Source: a virus. Taken from it: DNA of 56,343 bases. The stretch covers positions 1 through 56,343 of IMG/VR virus record IMGVR_UViG_3300029448_000046. One strand, given 5' to 3'. The translations under genes and the position numbers were made by a program. This document shows positions 24,344-46,117 of the stretch, one piece after another. The notes under the pieces were generated by a model that did not search any database, was not told the DNA's origin, and saw only the letters and a program-made list of their open reading frames with translations. Each line of letters opens with the position of its first letter. Within the stretch, counting starts at the first letter, position 1.

Positions 24344-24641
24344 TGCTTGTAACTTAGGTCGTTCACTCAATCCCAGTTGGCCAGAATGGAAACATGAAAA
24401 GGTTAGATGCGAAGCAACAGATTGGTTGCTTGGTGATAGCCAAGACTTTGCCGAAGTTTGCGAAGCCGCTGACATACAGAAAGAATATATAGCCAAGTTC
24501 GCCTTGAGAATATCCAAAGGTGACAACAAGGCAAAACAATTACTAATTGAATGGCGAGATACATTCGCTAAACAAGGAAGGAAGATAAAGAATGGCGTGG
24601 AAGTCGAACTCGAACCCGATGTTTCGGACGAAATTTTCTGA
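24309..24641 (+). CDS. Conserved-looking helical protein, unrecognised
   Basis: The ATG at 24309 (MWRATILQALLDACNLGRSL) follows an AAGG site; a TTG eleven codons earlier is also open. The 110 residues are mostly helical and charged (DSQDFAEVCEAADIQKEYIA, KFALRISKGDNKAKQLLIEW). It begins inside the VRR-NUC gene and ends 50 bases inside the reductase gene, so all three are tightly coupled. The central part looks like a small helix-turn-helix protein, but I cannot place it in a family. Confidence 0.5.
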   Translation: MWRATILQALLDACNLGRSLNPSWPEWKHEKVRCEATDWLLGDSQDFAEVCEAADIQKEYIAKFALRISKGDNKAKQLLIEWRDTFAKQGRKIKNGVEVELEPDVSDEIF

Positions 24642-26271
24642 AGATATTTTTAATAATAAGTACGCACATGAAGATGCAACAACATGGGCTGAGTTGTCAC
24701 GAACTTTGGTTGAGGATGTTTGTCGCGACTACATGCCTCAAGATGAGAAAGATGAACTTGTTGACCATCTCACAAACTTGAGATGGGTGGCAGGTGGCCG
24801 CTATCTTTATTATGCAGGTCGTAAGCGTAAGTTCTTTAACAACTGCTTTCTTTTACGCGCACAAGAAGATACCCGTGAGGACTGGGCTAACCTAAGTTGG
24901 AAGGCGGAAAGCTGTCTTATGACTGGCGGTGGAATAGGTATTGACTACTCAGTATACAGACCTGAAGGCTCGGCCCTCGGTGGAACTGGTGGAACTGCAT
25001 CTGGTTCTGTAACTAAGATGAAGATGATTAATGAAATCGGAAGGTCTGTAATGCAAGGCGGCTCACGTAGGTCTGCAATATATGCAAGCCTAAACTGGAA
25101 GCATGGAGACATAAATAGCTTTCTGGATGCCAAGAACTGGCACGAAATGCCAGTGGGTAAATCTGGCTACACACTGTATGATGCAAAGCAGGATGACTTT
25201 AACTTCCCTGCCCCACTCGACATGACAAATATCTCTGTCAATTATGACACAGAGTGGTTGATGAATTACTGGCAAACTGGTGATGTCGGAGATGTGTTTA
25301 GAAAGAATTGTAAACAAGCATTGAGCAGTGCAGAGCCAGGATTTTCCTTTAATTTTTTTGATAAAGAAAACGAAACTCTTCGCAACGCATGTACAGAAGT
25401 GACCAGCTCCGACTCAGATGACTTATGTAATCTTGCCAGCCTGAACTTCGCTCGTATTGATAGCTTAGACCAACTTCAATCACTGGTTTATCTGGTAACA
25501 AAGTTTCTTGTTTGTGGGACGATGGTTGCAGAACTCCCTTACGATGAAATTTATAGAACCCGTGAGAAAAATAGGCGTCTTGGTTTAGGGTTGATGGGTC
25601 TGCATGAATGGCTTATTGCACGTGGAAGTAAGTATGAAGTGACTGACGAACTTCATCGTTGGCTAAGAGTTTACAAGAGTGTGTCAGATGATACAGCAGA
25701 CAAGTTCTGTGATGAGTTATCTATTAGCCGCTCAGTAGCCAAACGTGCAGTCGCACCAACGGGAACGATAGGTATTATTGCTGGAACAACAACAGGAGTT
25801 GAGCCAATCTTTGCTGTCTCATATAAGCGCAGGTACTTAAAAGGAAGCAAGTGGCACTATCAATATGTGGTTGATGCGGCGGCTCAAGAAATGATTGATG
25901 TGTATGGAGCTGACCCGAATAAAATTGAATCGGCCATTGACCTAGCTGGTGACTACGAGCGAAGGATGAAGTTCCAGTTCGATGTCCAGTCTTACGTTGA
26001 CATGAGTATCTCAAGTACAATCAACCTACCTAGCTGGGGCAGTGAACTCAACAATGAGGATACCGCTGAAAAGTTTACTCAAACACTAGCTAAGTATGCT
26101 CATGGTCTGCGTGGTTTTACCGCTTACCCCGATGGCTGTCGAGGTGGTCAACCGCTTACATCAGTCGCGTATGCAGAGGCTGTAGAAAAACTTGGAACAG
26201 AGTTTGAGGAAGCTGTTGAGACACATGACATATGTGAAATCACTGCACACGGCGGTTCTTGTGGAGTGTAA
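24592..26271 (+). CDS. nrdJ: Class II (adenosylcobalamin-dependent) ribonucleotide reductase
   Basis: A 559-residue protein with GGAAGG nine bases before its ATG. It makes deoxyribonucleotides using a B12-derived radical. Cys85 (FNNCFLL) and Cys279 (DLCNLASLNF) form the redox pair, N265-x-C267-x-E269 (NACTE) is the radical active site, APTGTIGIIAGTTTGVEPIF is the phosphate-binding loop, and Cys548 and Cys557 near the end shuttle electrons. The length fits compact monomeric-type class II enzymes of marine phages. It needs host cobalamin, which limits suitable hosts to B12-using bacteria. It sits at the head of the replication module. Confidence 0.9.
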   Translation: MAWKSNSNPMFRTKFSEDIFNNKYAHEDATTWAELSRTLVEDVCRDYMPQDEKDELVDHLTNLRWVAGGRYLYYAGRKRKFFNNCFLLRAQEDTREDWANLSWKAESCLMTGGGIGIDYSVYRPEGSALGGTGGTASGSVTKMKMINEIGRSVMQGGSRRSAIYASLNWKHGDINSFLDAKNWHEMPVGKSGYTLYDAKQDDFNFPAPLDMTNISVNYDTEWLMNYWQTGDVGDVFRKNCKQALSSAEPGFSFNFFDKENETLRNACTEVTSSDSDDLCNLASLNFARIDSLDQLQSLVYLVTKFLVCGTMVAELPYDEIYRTREKNRRLGLGLMGLHEWLIARGSKYEVTDELHRWLRVYKSVSDDTADKFCDELSISRSVAKRAVAPTGTIGIIAGTTTGVEPIFAVSYKRRYLKGSKWHYQYVVDAAAQEMIDVYGADPNKIESAIDLAGDYERRMKFQFDVQSYVDMSISSTINLPSWGSELNNEDTAEKFTQTLAKYAHGLRGFTAYPDGCRGGQPLTSVAYAEAVEKLGTEFEEAVETHDICEITAHGGSCGV

Positions 26272-39953: not shown

Positions 39954-40101
39954 ATTGATTTCAAGAATTGAACGAAGGTGGTCAGAGCGAAAGAGAAACA
40001 TCAGGTATCAGAAGTTTCTCAGGCGTAGGATTTTATTTAACAGTCTGTTTAAGTGGATGAACACTAGGCCAGCAAAAACAATATACCCGGAGAAAAAGTA
40101 A
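39946..40101 (+). CDS. 51-residue basic protein with TTG start
   Basis: A short frame whose TTG overlaps the end of the nuclease-like gene and whose TAA overlaps the MazG start (TAATG). It reads LTELISRIERRWSERKRNIR, then YQKFLRRRILFNSLFKWMNT, rich in Arg and Lys. The exact fit between two genes supports translation, but no strong ribosome site is seen. It may bind nucleic acid. Confidence 0.45.
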   Translation: MTELISRIERRWSERKRNIRYQKFLRRRILFNSLFKWMNTRPAKTIYPEKK

Positions 40102-40427
40102 TGGACTTTCAAAACTACCAGTCAAAGGCCAGAACAACGGCTGTATACCCGTCTGAATATAGGATTATATACACGACCCTCGGATTGTGTGGAGAGGCGG
40201 GAGAGATTTCTGAAAAGGTAAAAAAGGTTATTAGAGACAAGGGTGGTGTGTTCACCGAAGAAGACCGCGCTGAAATCTCCAAAGAGTTAGGCGATGTGCT
40301 TTGGTATCTGTCTCAACTTGCCGCTGACTTGGATATACGTCTTGAGCAGGTAGCAGAAGATAATCTTGAAAAGCTTTTCTCCAGACAGAGTCGCGGCAAA
40401 ATCAGTGGGTCTGGAGACAACCGTTAG
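40101..40427 (+). CDS. MazG-like nucleotide pyrophosphohydrolase
   Basis: A 108-residue protein with GGAG before its ATG. TTLGLCGEAGEISEKVKKVI and ISKELGDVLWYLSQLAADL contain the Glu-x2-Glu and Glu-x2-Asp motifs that bind magnesium in the MazG/dUTPase-like all-alpha family. It would hydrolyse nucleoside triphosphates or, as proposed for phage MazG, affect ppGpp or nucleotide pools. It is a single-domain form. It lies just upstream of the large terminase. Confidence 0.85.
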   Translation: MDFQNYQSKARTTAVYPSEYRIIYTTLGLCGEAGEISEKVKKVIRDKGGVFTEEDRAEISKELGDVLWYLSQLAADLDIRLEQVAEDNLEKLFSRQSRGKISGSGDNR

Positions 40428-40477: not shown

Positions 40478-41989
40478 ATGGAAGCGTCTGCTCAAGAACT
40501 CCTCAAAAATCTAGACAAGCTACCGCCTGAACATTACGAGGCGGTAACTGTTGCGCTTGCAAAATGGCATGAGGCTAAAAGAATAGATAAGTCTAAGGAC
40601 AGCTTCCTAGACTTTGTTAAGGTTGTGTGGCCAGCATTTATCGAAGGTCCACACCATAGAATAATGGCTGAGAAGTTTCAAAAGGTAGCCAGCGGCGAGT
40701 TGAAGCGTATCATCATCAATATCGCTCCTCGACACGGTAAGTCTGAACTTACCTCTTGGCTACTACCAGCTTGGATGCTTGGGAAAGACCCTAGTAAGAA
40801 AATCATTGCCGCAACGCACACGGCAGATTTCTCTGTAAGGTTTGGTCGAAAGGTTCGTAACCTCATCGACTCCGAGTCATTCAAGGGGGTATTCCCAAAC
40901 ATCTCTCTCAGGGCTGACTCAAAGGCCGCTGGTAGATGGGATGTTTCAGGCGGCGGAGAATACTTCGCTGTCGGTGTTGGCGGTGCAATGACTGGGCGTG
41001 GTGCAGACCTGCTTATCATTGACGACCCTCACTCAGAGACTGCTGGTATTAGTCCGTCTCTTGATTACTTTGATGGTGTTTATGAATGGTATGCATCTGG
41101 TCCGAGACAGCGTCTCCAGCCGGGCGGTGCAATCATAATCGTCATGACCCGCTGGCATCAGTTAGACCTGACGGGTCAGATACTCCAGTCATCAGAAGAC
41201 AGGAAGGGTTCCGACAAATGGGAAGTGATTGAGCTTCCTGCTATGTACGAAAACGGCGAACCTCTTTGGCCAGACTTCTGGAGCAAGGAGGAGCTAGACG
41301 CTCTGAAGGCGGAGCTTCCCATTTCAAAGTGGGAGGCCCAGTACCAGCAACAGCCCACCTCTGAAGAGGGTGCGCTTATCAAGAGAGAGTACTGGAGAGA
41401 GTGGCGAGCCGATAACCCACCCCAATGTGATTACATAATTCAGTCAGTAGATACAGCGCATACCAAGAACGCGAGGTCTGACTACTCCGCAATAACAACA
41501 TGGGGTGTATTCCAACATCCAAATGATGACGGACAAGTTACAGCCAACATCATTCTTCTCGACGCAGTTAACGAAAAACTTGAGTTCCCTGAATTAAAGA
41601 ACAGGGCTTTGGAGCTTTATTATTCTTATGAACCAGACGGATATCTTATTGAAGCAAAGGCGGCGGGTTTACCGCTTATACAAGAACTGCGAGCGAGCGG
41701 TATTCCTGTCATGGATTACACTCCGAGTCGCGGCCAAGATAAATTATCGCGGGTTAATGCTATCACTGACATCTTTGCTAACGGCATTGTTTGGTATCCT
41801 AAAACACGATGGGCTGAAGAAGTGGTTGAGCAATGCGCGTCGTTCCCTCAAGGAGCGCATGATGACCTTGTTGACTGCACGACCTTGGCGTTGATGCGTT
41901 TTAGACAAGGCGGGTTTATCAGTCTTGATAATGATTACGGCGATGAGAGTGACGAGTGGTTACCTCGGCGCAAAGAGCCTTACTACTAG
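40478..41989 (+). CDS. terL: Terminase large subunit
   Basis: A 503-residue packaging motor. Walker A is APRHGKSE (83-90), Walker B is LLIIDDP (178-184) with the catalytic acidic residue from the following PHSE, and the coupling motif is MTRWH (223-227). The RNase H-like nuclease part has Asp325 (SVDTAHT), Glu393 (LIEAKAAG) and HDDLVD (462-467). It drives DNA into the procapsid through the portal and cuts it. The motif RHGKSE is typical of headful-type terminases of podophages. It starts the main structural gene run. Confidence 0.95.
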   Translation: MEASAQELLKNLDKLPPEHYEAVTVALAKWHEAKRIDKSKDSFLDFVKVVWPAFIEGPHHRIMAEKFQKVASGELKRIIINIAPRHGKSELTSWLLPAWMLGKDPSKKIIAATHTADFSVRFGRKVRNLIDSESFKGVFPNISLRADSKAAGRWDVSGGGEYFAVGVGGAMTGRGADLLIIDDPHSETAGISPSLDYFDGVYEWYASGPRQRLQPGGAIIIVMTRWHQLDLTGQILQSSEDRKGSDKWEVIELPAMYENGEPLWPDFWSKEELDALKAELPISKWEAQYQQQPTSEEGALIKREYWREWRADNPPQCDYIIQSVDTAHTKNARSDYSAITTWGVFQHPNDDGQVTANIILLDAVNEKLEFPELKNRALELYYSYEPDGYLIEAKAAGLPLIQELRASGIPVMDYTPSRGQDKLSRVNAITDIFANGIVWYPKTRWAEEVVEQCASFPQGAHDDLVDCTTLALMRFRQGGFISLDNDYGDESDEWLPRRKEPYY

Positions 41990-41998
41990 GGAGAAACA

Positions 41999-43072
41999 AT
42001 GCCGCCAAAAAACCACAAGAGCTGGGTGAAAGAGCCAAACATAGAATACGTTAACTCTCTTATCTACTCAGACCAAGGCTTGTACGAGCAGGAGATAGAG
42101 AAGATATTTTCTAAGGTCTGGGTTCCCTGCTTTCACAAAAGCGAACTACCAAAGGCTGGTAACTTCAGAACTGGTCAGATAGCAGGACAAAACATTCTTG
42201 CTTACAACACTGGCAGGGAGATAGTTGCTTATCGGAACTACAGTGTGAATGAACCTAGTGGTACGTTTGCGGCTCATATCGTAACCTCAGAGCCAAAGCT
42301 ACATTGCGAAGTAAAGCATGGCGGCATGGTCTGGGTCACCTTAGACCCCAATCCCTCCCAGAGTGTAGAAGAGTGGACAGGTGGTGCTTTTGATTGCATT
42401 GCAAAAGCGATTGATACCGAAGAGCTAGAGGTATTTCACTATCACAAGGCTATCATTGATACCAATTACAAGCTTTGGCACGATACCAATAGCGAGTTCT
42501 ATCATGACTTCATGCACTATCATAACCGCGTAACTGGCTTCAACGACGCCTATTTCGCACGTAAGAACATTCCATTCGACAATGGGCATGTGAATGTCAG
42601 TAGCTTCACAGTTCAGTATGAAGAGTATGAAGGCTTTGAAGATAGAGGTGAGCTGTCATTCCCTAACCTGCCGCCCAACCAGTGGTACATGGTTGACCTG
42701 TTTCCGGGTTATAACTTCAACCTGAGAGGTAGTGCCTATCGCAGTGATAGTATCACGCCTCTTGGTCCAAACAAGGTGATGATTGAGTTTCGTGGTTACG
42801 GACTAAAGAGTGACAGCCCAGAAGACCGTGCCACACGCATCGAACATCATAATTCTATATGGGGACCTTTCGGCAGAAACCTCCATGAAGATTTGATTGG
42901 TGTCTCAGGACAAGGCACAACCATGCGTCCCAACACAGAGCCTCGTAACATTCTTCATGGTCGCCATGAAGGTGGAACAATCCATGATGAGGTTGGAATG
43001 AGGCACTACTACGCTGAGTGGTCAAAGTGGATTGGCGTTCCGGCAAACAACCCCCTACAGGAAACGGCATAA
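41999..43072 (+). CDS. Rieske-oxygenase-family protein lacking Rieske ligands (MsmA-like)
   Basis: A 357-residue protein with GGGAG five bases before its ATG. The start (LIYSDQGLYEQEIEKIFSKV, WVPCFHKSELPKAGNF) is that of ring-hydroxylating oxygenase large subunits. The [2Fe-2S] ligands that should follow (C-x-H, C-x2-H) are missing: the region reads AYRNYSVNEPSGTFAAHIV and LHCEVKHGG. The catalytic half keeps a likely mononuclear-iron site: NYKLWHDTNSEFYHDFMHYH (His169 with His173 or His175) and Asp298 in NLHEDLIGVS. I recall a methanesulfonate-monooxygenase-like gene in phage HMO-2011; this may be its counterpart. Sitting between terminase and portal, it could be a repurposed structural or modifying protein. 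Confidence 0.75.
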   Translation: MPPKNHKSWVKEPNIEYVNSLIYSDQGLYEQEIEKIFSKVWVPCFHKSELPKAGNFRTGQIAGQNILAYNTGREIVAYRNYSVNEPSGTFAAHIVTSEPKLHCEVKHGGMVWVTLDPNPSQSVEEWTGGAFDCIAKAIDTEELEVFHYHKAIIDTNYKLWHDTNSEFYHDFMHYHNRVTGFNDAYFARKNIPFDNGHVNVSSFTVQYEEYEGFEDRGELSFPNLPPNQWYMVDLFPGYNFNLRGSAYRSDSITPLGPNKVMIEFRGYGLKSDSPEDRATRIEHHNSIWGPFGRNLHEDLIGVSGQGTTMRPNTEPRNILHGRHEGGTIHDEVGMRHYYAEWSKWIGVPANNPLQETA

Positions 43073-43091: not shown

Positions 43092-45443
43092 ATGGTAGAA
43101 GAACTAAACATTGAGGAAGACTCTTTAAGCATTGGTGTGGTCAACCCCGAAGCCATTATCATTGGTGAAGATGATGGAAGTGTTGTGATTGATTTTGACC
43201 CAGAGTCATCTGAAGACAAGATTGAGTTTGGCGCAAACCTTGCGGAACACATTGACGAGTCCGAGCTTTCTATACTTTCTTCAGACCTAATTGCATCATA
43301 TGACGACGACAAAGCTTCTCGGTCGGACTGGGAAGACACCTATATTGATGGCTTGGATTTGCTTGGTGTTAAGATTGAGGACAGGTCAACCCCGTTTCAG
43401 GGTGCAACTGGTGTCTCTCATCCCATACTCAGTGAAGCTGTAATAAGATTTGTATCTCAGGCAATGATGGAGATATTCCCATCCAATGGACCAGTAAGAA
43501 CAACCGTCATTGGGGAGAAAACCCTAGAGAGAGACCAACAAGCAATCAGAGTTAGAGACTACATGAACTATCTCCTGACCGAGGAGATAGAGGAATACAG
43601 GCCGTCAACAGAACAATTACTATTCAAGACTGCCCTCTCCGGCTCTGGCTTCAGGAAAGTATACAAGGATGAAACTCATAATCGTCCCGACAGTATATTT
43701 GTTCCAGCCGAAGACTTTGTAATTAGTTATGAGACTACAGACCTGAAGTCATCACCCCGATATACGCATGTGATGCGAAAGAGTGACAACTTTGTAAGAC
43801 GTATGCAAATTAACGGGTTCTATCGTGACGTCAACTTAGGAGACCCTTCTAATGAAGGAAGCGACATCCAAACAAAATACAACGAACTTACCGGAGTCAC
43901 GGAAGTCTCAGACACAGATGTCAGAACCCTGCTCGAAATGTTCGTCGAGCTTGACCTCGAAGGATTTGAACACACTGGACAAGACGGAGAACCTACAGGA
44001 CTCAGCCTCCCCTACGTCGTCACCATCGACCAAACCAGTGACACCATTCTATCAATACGCCGTAATTACAAAGAGGATGACCCACTAACAGAGCCAACCC
44101 AACACTTTGTACATTACAAGTTTCAGCCCGGTCTTGGATTTTATGGTTTCGGTTTGATACACCTTATTGGCTCAATAGCTAAATCATCCACATCAATTCT
44201 TAGACAGCTAATAGATGCAGGTACACTAGCCAACCTTCCAGCAGGATTTAAAGCCAGAGGTCTAAGAATTAAGGGTGATGACAGACCAATAGAACCCGGA
44301 GAGTTCCGCGATATTGATTTGCCAGGTGGGGCTATAAGAGACAACATTCTACCCTTACCATTCAAGGAGCCTTCTCCAACACTTGCCCAATTGATGGGTG
44401 TTCTGGTTGATGAGGGCAGACGCATAGCATCTATTGCCGATATGAATATAGGTGAGGGAAATCAGGAAGCTCCTGTAGGAACAACCATAGCCCTTATTGA
44501 ACGCTCAATGAAGGTTATGTCAGCCGTACATGCTAGACTTCATAATAGTTTAAAGCGTGAGTTTAAGCTGTTAACAGAGATTATTAGGGATACTTTACCT
44601 GAGTATCCTTACGATGTTGGGGAAGATTCATTAATTGCAAGGTCAGACTTTGACGACCGAGTCGATATCATTCCTGTTTCTGACCCCAACGCAACCTCGT
44701 TTGCCCAACGGATTATGCAACAACAGGCCGCGCTACAAACATCGGCGCAAGCACCACAGTTATATGACCTGAGAAAACTCCACCGAGCGTTTCTCCACAC
44801 TGTTGGTGTAGACGGGGTTGACGAAATCATACCAGACCCAACTGACGTTCCGGCGTTTGACCCAGTGTCAGAGAACGCACGCCTCATGTCTGGTGCGGCT
44901 GTCAAGGTTTATGCCTACCAAGACCATGACAGTCACATATCCGCGCATATGTCACTGATGCAAGACCCAAGTATGCAACAGAACCCTATGGCTAAAATGA
45001 TACAGCAATCTGTTTCATCTCATATATCCGAACATATGGCGCACAAGTACCGCAACGAAGCTCAAGAGCTTATGTCTGAAGAACTTCCACCACTCAATCC
45101 AGAAGCTGAGAACGGATTGTCGGAGGAAGAAGAGTCACGCATTTCAGCCCAAGCTTCTCAAGCGGCGGCACAGATAACTGGCAAGGCACAGCAACAAGCT
45201 GTTCTTGAGAAACAAATGGCGGCGGCACAAGACCCTGTCATGCAACAGCAACAAGCCGAGTTACAGGTTAAACAGGCAAAGGTTCAGCAAGAAGCACAAG
45301 AGGCGCAGATGGATGCACAGGTCGAAATGCAGAAAGCACAAATGAGAACACAGCTTGAAAGAGAACGCCTAGCACAACAGAGGGAGATAGCTGAGATGAA
45401 AGCGCAGATAGAACTCATCAAAGCTGGGATGAAAACTAACTAG
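43092..45443 (+). CDS. Portal protein
   Basis: A 783-residue protein. After an acidic N-terminus, SRSDWEDTYIDGLDLLGVKI, STPFQGATGVSHPILSEAVI and QAMMEIFPSNGPVRTTVIG match the portal family of marine podophages and siphophages. The middle includes SGSGFRKVYKDE, PGLGFYGFGLIHLIGSIA and PVGTTIALIERSMKVMSAVH, the latter being the long channel-side helix. The last 90 residues are a Gln/Ala-rich coiled coil (QVKQAKVQQEAQEAQMDAQV), like the barrel of large portals. It forms the dodecameric ring through which TerL packages DNA. Confidence 0.9.
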   Translation: MVEELNIEEDSLSIGVVNPEAIIIGEDDGSVVIDFDPESSEDKIEFGANLAEHIDESELSILSSDLIASYDDDKASRSDWEDTYIDGLDLLGVKIEDRSTPFQGATGVSHPILSEAVIRFVSQAMMEIFPSNGPVRTTVIGEKTLERDQQAIRVRDYMNYLLTEEIEEYRPSTEQLLFKTALSGSGFRKVYKDETHNRPDSIFVPAEDFVISYETTDLKSSPRYTHVMRKSDNFVRRMQINGFYRDVNLGDPSNEGSDIQTKYNELTGVTEVSDTDVRTLLEMFVELDLEGFEHTGQDGEPTGLSLPYVVTIDQTSDTILSIRRNYKEDDPLTEPTQHFVHYKFQPGLGFYGFGLIHLIGSIAKSSTSILRQLIDAGTLANLPAGFKARGLRIKGDDRPIEPGEFRDIDLPGGAIRDNILPLPFKEPSPTLAQLMGVLVDEGRRIASIADMNIGEGNQEAPVGTTIALIERSMKVMSAVHARLHNSLKREFKLLTEIIRDTLPEYPYDVGEDSLIARSDFDDRVDIIPVSDPNATSFAQRIMQQQAALQTSAQAPQLYDLRKLHRAFLHTVGVDGVDEIIPDPTDVPAFDPVSENARLMSGAAVKVYAYQDHDSHISAHMSLMQDPSMQQNPMAKMIQQSVSSHISEHMAHKYRNEAQELMSEELPPLNPEAENGLSEEEESRISAQASQAAAQITGKAQQQAVLEKQMAAAQDPVMQQQQAELQVKQAKVQQEAQEAQMDAQVEMQKAQMRTQLERERLAQQREIAEMKAQIELIKAGMKTN

Positions 45444-45739: not shown

Positions 45740-46117
45740 ATGTCATCCGTATATAGTACGGGTGCGGTTGTCATTCCAGACAACCCGCCAAAGCCTATGG
45801 GCTATCACGTTTTAATTGTGATGCCAAAAGTTGAAGAGCAAACAAAAGGCGGAGTCATACTTCCGGGTGAAGTTAAGAACCGCGAAGACGTTGCTTCGAT
45901 AGTTGGAAAAGTGGTCTCAGTTGGAGATACCGCATACCCCGAAACAGATACACGATTTGCCGCTGGACCTTGGTGTCGAGAAGGCGATTGGGTGATGGTT
46001 TCAAAGTATGCTGGACACCGATTTGAGTATGACCGCGTCGAGATGCGTATCCTTAATGATGACGCAGTGCTTGCGGTTGTAGACGACCCAACCAAGATTT
46101 CGAGGGCAACAGGATGA
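45740..46117 (+). CDS. GroES-like co-chaperonin
   Basis: A 125-residue protein with AGGAG before its ATG. KPMGYHVLIVMPKVEEQTKG, GVILPGEVK, VGKVVSVGDTAYP, GPWCREGDWVMVSKYAGHRF and RILNDDAVLAVVDDP follow the GroES fold: a mobile loop (EEQTKGGVILP) that contacts GroEL, flanked by beta strands. No GroEL is encoded nearby, so it would use the host chaperonin, as T4 gp31 does, probably to fold the capsid protein. It overlaps the scaffold start (ATGA). Confidence 0.85.
   Translation: MSSVYSTGAVVIPDNPPKPMGYHVLIVMPKVEEQTKGGVILPGEVKNREDVASIVGKVVSVGDTAYPETDTRFAAGPWCREGDWVMVSKYAGHRFEYDRVEMRILNDDAVLAVVDDPTKISRATG

Follow-up and report, generated by a model that had tools for sequence, protein, structure and literature searches.

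The alphaC Gene in the Window

The sequence analyzed here, referred to as the window, is the whole 56,343-nucleotide stretch of marine viral DNA in the IMG/VR record IMGVR_UViG_3300029448_000046. Among its head genes, it encodes a homolog of MsmA, the methanesulfonate monooxygenase alpha subunit, and this homolog lacks the Rieske motif (Table 1). Short Rieske-less proteins of this kind are designated as alphaC. The first-pass annotation had recognized an oxygenase-family open reading frame between the terminase and portal genes, and this frame is real and intact, with gaps of 9 nt from the terminase end and 19 nt to the portal start. The insertion site had also been called unusual. It is indeed seen in the window alone among the 82 phage neighbourhoods compared, which are mostly of the HMO-2011 type with the alphaC gene located elsewhere. 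The site varies among phages and is not informative; the terminase-portal insertion was thus rejected as a functional clue.

The window also includes genes for nucleotide supply, a ribonucleotide reductase large subunit (24592–26271) and a MazG pyrophosphohydrolase (40101–40427). A GroES-like co-chaperonin (Cpn10, e-value 1.5 × 10−13) is encoded at 45740–46117, shortly after the portal gene.

Table 1. Features of the alphaC locus, with positions in the window.
Feature	Position	Strand	Remarks
alphaC, Rieske-less catalytic-half homologue of MsmA, 357 aa	41999..43072	+	ATG start
Shine-Dalgarno-like GGGAG, 5 nt upstream of the alphaC ATG	41989..41993	+	sequence
Rieske subdomain remnant, alphaC residues 46-106	42134..42316	+	strands predicted, both cluster-binding loops deleted, phage-variable
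End of N-terminal domain and catalytic domain, alphaC residues 107-342	42317..43024	+	strongly conserved
Iron-site motif E166-x2-H169-x3-H173 (bridging Glu and two His ligands)	42494..42517	+	
D298, carboxylate iron ligand, within LHED	42890..42892	+	
Terminase large subunit, directly 5' of the alphaC frame	40478..41989	+	context
Portal protein, directly 3' of the alphaC frame	43092..45443	+	context, phrog_1216

Fold and Iron Site of the Window Protein

The window protein matches ring-hydroxylating oxygenase (RHO) alpha subunits in NCBIfam. With the Pfam family Ring_hydroxyl_A, the e-value was 2.5 × 10−5 and the score 24.7 bits, 0.2 below the curated cut-off of 24.9, and the PHROGs search gave no significant family for the protein. 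A profile built from its relatives matched around 29 RHO alpha chains in the PDB. The AlphaFold model showed pLDDT 86.6 and pTM 0.88. It was obtained with an input of 82 rows including intact MsmA; 27 close relatives alone gave pLDDT 50, and that model was not used. The PDB matches listed by Foldseek were RHO alpha subunits aligned over the whole chain, with TM-scores of 0.65–0.76 by query length. The similarity to oxygenases noticed in the first-pass annotation is therefore borne out, and the RHO alpha fold extends over the whole length of the protein.

All four ligands of the Rieske cluster had been reported as gone, and they are absent from the window protein, from the HMO-2011 protein, and from 139 of 139 distinct viral relatives. 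The window protein contains neither the Rieske motif CXH...CXXH nor the specific spacing CXH-X26-CXXH, which Henriques and De Marco described as the signature of true MsmA (PMC4433239). The ligands are mostly deleted rather than replaced as initially described: the protein has around 50 residues fewer than intact MsmA, and both cluster-binding loops are gone. The AlphaFold model still contains, at high confidence, the beta strands of the Rieske-type subdomain.

The catalytic domain belongs to the MsmA clade, and the overall identity to intact MsmA is 58–66%. E166, H169, H173, and D298 are invariant in 82 of 82 aligned family members, and they are predicted to constitute a 2-His-1-carboxylate iron site with a bridging acid. 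Of the residues proposed from the first inspection (His169, His173 or His175, and Asp298), H175 was rejected as an iron ligand because Phe occupies position 175 in 128 of 139 distinct viral relatives, while the other three are retained.

The Viral alphaC Family

Genes for alphaC relatives are present in at least 594 viral stretches, and three scans were pooled to collect 139 full-length viral proteins, all distinct. Each of the 139 keeps the E-x2-H-x3-H motif and LHED, and none has the Rieske motif; the loss is a conserved character of the viral relatives. The catalytic domain is nearly invariant among them and residues 46–106 vary freely. Between the window and HMO-2011 proteins, pN is 0.028 for residues 141–342 and 0.49 for residues 46–106, with synonymous sites saturated in both regions. 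This conservation pattern indicates that the viral alphaC is a functional and strongly selected protein.

The partners are missing from the viruses searched. The phage alphaC loci contain no MsmB, MsmC, or reductase gene. A search of viral contigs for the Rieske half by peptide and DNA patterns found none, and the stretch CMFHAWQFDM was likewise not detected in any of them.

The dead Rieske slot (residues 46–106, window 42134–42316) shows a pN/pS of 0.47 among phages versus 0.17 in cellular alphaC, and its phage versions fall into recurring sequence types resembling exchanged cassettes. A hypervariable recognition module was considered for this region. Relaxed constraint on a dead slot is the simpler explanation, although the value of 0.47 is still compatible with diversification.

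Very large viral contigs also carry alphaC, such as L172 and L260 of 316 kb and 222 kb, respectively. The family thus spans unrelated phage types.

Two Complementary MsmA Derivatives in SAR116

The scan for cellular relatives covered 84,980 species, and relatives were sampled by similarity to three queries. They are of two kinds. Proteins of around 410–435 aa show 52–59% identity and contain CXH-X26-CXXH, with a single relative not matching this pattern (L153). Proteins of around 362 aa show 69–75% identity, lack the Rieske motif, and come chiefly from SAR116. Among the 17 short "cellular" alphaC copies, two (L088 and L099) are on viral-looking contigs, and the L099 contig is a 100% match to an IMG/VR contig equal in length.

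SAR116 genomes additionally encode a fusion protein of around 800 aa, designated as alphaR. Its Rieske domain is intact, its RHO catalytic domain is degenerate, and a flavin reductase of the Pyr_redox_2/Reductase_C type is fused to them; the Pfam matches are Rieske, Pyr_redox_2, and Reductase_C. The operon order is alphaR-MsmB-MsmC-(X279)-alphaC, and the genes that follow encode a LysR regulator, the sulfite exporter TauE, PanB, formate-THF ligase, and FolD.

The conserved residues of the two proteins are complementary. The Rieske C/H/C/H ligands are kept in 16 of 16 intact MsmA proteins and 10 of 10 alphaR proteins, and in none of the 17 short cellular or 6 phage alphaC proteins. The residues E166/H169/H173/D298 are kept in all intact MsmA (16/16), cellular alphaC (17/17), and phage alphaC (6/6), and in no alphaR (0/10). 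The genome G092, which we take to be that of IMCC1322, the host of HMO-2011, encodes both proteins. Its alphaR motif NFKLNHDRTIKFHQDFMK and its alphaC motif NYKLWHDTNSEFYHDFMH align without a gap; alphaR carries the substitutions E166K, H169Q, and H173K, and its D298 segment is deleted.

Sequence divergence follows the same division. Compared with the intact MsmA L107, alphaR is 79–83% identical in the Rieske half and 32–53% in the catalytic half, and alphaC is 39–46% and 77–82% identical, respectively. Median pN/pS values for the Rieske and catalytic halves are 0.083 and 0.500 in alphaR, 0.167 and 0.062 in alphaC, and 0.155 and 0.144 in intact MsmA; these are relative values and not calibrated dN/dS, as synonymous sites are saturated. 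alphaR and alphaC are reciprocally decayed: the half under constraint in one copy varies freely in its counterpart. Intact MsmA serves as an even, symmetric control.

The two proteins also occur together. Twelve of the 136 host-order genomes encode alphaC, and 11 of the 12 encode alphaR; the twelfth has a 123-aa alphaR-family fragment at a contig start. One host-order genome encodes intact MsmA and neither alphaR nor alphaC. The association (12/12 versus 0/124 genomes) gives a Fisher p of around 2 × 10−17, a value inflated by linkage and shared ancestry. Both halves share one operon in most genomes, and in L165 and L166 they are on the same contig around 10 kb apart. Given this linkage in the host, the co-occurrence by itself argues only weakly for their interaction.

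Several variations of the split operon were observed. A conserved protein of around 279 aa without a Pfam match is encoded just 5' of alphaC in most SAR116 split operons (L091:4953–5792, L164:13555–14385). In L165 (13189–15575), alphaR is present as two overlapping frames, a Rieske part of 330 aa and a reductase part of 465 aa, which reflect either a genuinely unfused protein or an error in sequencing. In L164 (8912–13502), msmC and the 279-aa gene are separated by three genes of 962, 249, and 312 aa, possibly the dmsABC cluster reported to adjoin msmA in SAR116 (PMC8547437).

Evolution of alphaC

In the phylogenetic tree, alphaC is one group apart from intact MsmA with a branch support of 100/100. 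When the tree is rooted on intact MsmA, the deepest alphaC lineages are from phages (HMO-2011 and the window), and cellular alphaC nests at two places within the phage sequences. A single clade of cellular alphaC was weakly rejected (p-AU 0.033), and a single clade of phage alphaC was not formally rejected (p-AU 0.129). The tree tests are only suggestive regarding the origin of alphaC. A tentative and rather doubtful scenario is that alphaC arose in phages, where it worked with the intact MsmA of the host, and was later captured by SAR116, whose resident MsmA lost its catalytic site. If so, a virus-made part would have reshaped a bacterial enzyme into two subunits. Transfer from host to phage, with host lineages that are unsampled, is possible.

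A Proposed Pairing of a Phage Catalytic Half with a Host Rieske Half

The preferred interpretation, with a probability of roughly three in four (0.74), is that the window gene encodes the alphaC of a split Rieske monooxygenase. The phage would make alphaC only, and the host would supply alphaR, MsmB, and MsmC, so that methanesulfonate oxidation is sustained. The window phage presumably infects SAR116. The iron-sulfur cluster absent from the phage protein is probably supplied by the infected cell, because the likely SAR116 hosts carry the electron-delivery half as a separate protein.

Rieske oxygenases pass electrons between subunits, and thus the phage alphaC could plausibly join host alphaR, MsmB, and MsmC and serve the host enzyme as a catalytic half that can be replaced. 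In the carnitine monooxygenase CntA, the distance from the Rieske cluster to the iron is 44 Å within a chain and 12 Å to the neighbouring subunit, and electrons are known to cross between subunits by way of a bridging Glu (PMC7948474). In the split enzyme, the Rieske cluster of alphaR would pass electrons over a mixed-subunit interface to the iron of alphaC. With the iron site dead in one subunit and the Rieske site dead in its neighbour, one productive interface would be left.

The enzyme containing the phage alphaC may keep the conversion of methanesulfonate to formaldehyde and sulfite going during infection; homology and operon context point to methanesulfonate as the likely substrate. The benefit for the phage is a matter of speculation. 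Cyanophage psbA renews D1, and by analogy the phage alphaC might renew a labile catalytic subunit. Formaldehyde-derived one-carbon units might alternatively be used for nucleotide synthesis. The presence of alphaC in viral contigs up to 316 kb counts against a host-supplied partner.

The first-pass annotation had offered two explanations for the missing cluster: a different electron source, or a protein turned to binding or structural roles. The former is supported in a specific form, with alphaR as the source: this paralogue, encoded beside alphaC in the host, carries a Rieske cluster and a reductase but no working catalytic site. The different source could be more direct: alphaC could be a working iron oxygenase reduced by the host MsmC ferredoxin or another donor, with alphaR as a separate reductase-side component. 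MsmC, a Rieske-domain ferredoxin, shares the SAR116 operon, and the iron site of alphaC is fully conserved. However, the Rieske half of alphaR remains very similar to that of intact MsmA (79–83%) under strong selection, which would be superfluous for a mere reductase, and direct reduction is considered unlikely.

Less likely again is a regulatory or dominant-negative subunit, with which the phage would block or retune methanesulfonate oxidation by the host. A phage-made subunit would displace the host counterpart, and the pseudo-Rieske region evolves fast in phages. However, the iron ligands and the bridging Glu are present in all 139 viral proteins, and the host operon itself encodes the same Rieske-less protein.

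The location among head genes in the window could suggest a non-catalytic iron- or ligand-binding protein or a virion protein, but other phages carry alphaC at different locations. No change is seen in the iron ligands or the bridging Glu of a nearly invariant active site, and the catalytic-domain pN is 0.028 against saturated pS; binding or structural roles are therefore disfavoured and very improbable. Decay of a former metabolic gene, which the degenerate Rieske region could indicate, has a negligible probability, as it is already contradicted by the same selection data between the window and HMO-2011 and by the widely conserved, intact iron site.

Comparison with Known Rieske Oxygenases

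Among named relatives, the one closest to the window protein is the gp61 product of Puniceispirillum phage HMO-2011, which carries the annotation methanesulfonate monooxygenase. It belongs to the same family with 78.6% identity, and differs in genome position. In 2015, Henriques and De Marco reported that the Rieske motif is absent from the HMO-2011 MsmA, from numerous GOS and virome sequences, and from one of the two proteins annotated as MsmA in the SAR116 host, and the accessible part of that report offers no mechanism (PMC4433239). The absence in the phage protein is thus not new. Neither a split methanesulfonate monooxygenase nor a complementary reading of alphaR and alphaC was found in the literature searched, whose coverage did not include the primary HMO-2011 paper (PNAS 2013).

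The iron motif of alphaC is identical to that of intact MsmA, and cellular alphaC is 77–82% identical to it in the catalytic half. They differ in the Rieske loops, deleted in alphaC, and in msmB/C/D, absent from the phage. CntA shares the fold (TM-score around 0.7) and the bridging Glu before the first iron His, but it forms an alpha3 homotrimer in which every chain holds both centres.

A known parallel, and a precedent at the biochemical level, is 7-methylxanthine N-demethylase NdmC/NdmD(+NdmE) in caffeine demethylation, in which the oxygenase NdmC has no Rieske cluster and the reductase NdmD bears the extra Rieske domain (PMC4408171). The window protein is likewise a catalytic subunit without the cluster, and alphaR, found in host genomes and not in the phage, is likewise a partner joining a Rieske domain and a reductase. 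The nearest cellular relatives found for alphaC are MsmA proteins. Unlike NdmC and NdmD, both alphaR and alphaC retain the general shape of a complete MsmA and are decayed reciprocally, the reductase of alphaR is of the Pyr_redox_2/Reductase_C type, and alphaC is widespread in phages.

The split between alphaR and alphaC offers an explanation for the Rieske-less MsmA of SAR116 and of marine viromes, and suggests that one more Rieske oxygenase is divided between two proteins. To our knowledge, there is no earlier case of a virus that carries one half of a split Rieske oxygenase and depends on its host for the other. With the two centres on different polypeptides, the pair lends itself to testing how electrons pass between subunits. 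On this reading, counts of phage msmA should not be taken to show that phages encode the whole methanesulfonate oxidation step of the sulfur cycle in the ocean.

C-Terminal Ends of alphaC

The C-terminus is Ala-Ala in 109 of the 139 distinct viral alphaC proteins (Leu-Ala-Ala in 65), compared with 7 of 614 other viral open reading frames. The window copy itself ends in ETA (window 43064–43069 region). AAE is the usual end of intact MsmA and cellular alphaC. This weakens the idea that the Ala-Ala end is a phage-specific invention, and suggests that the phage form lost the last Glu, exposing an ssrA-like LAA end.
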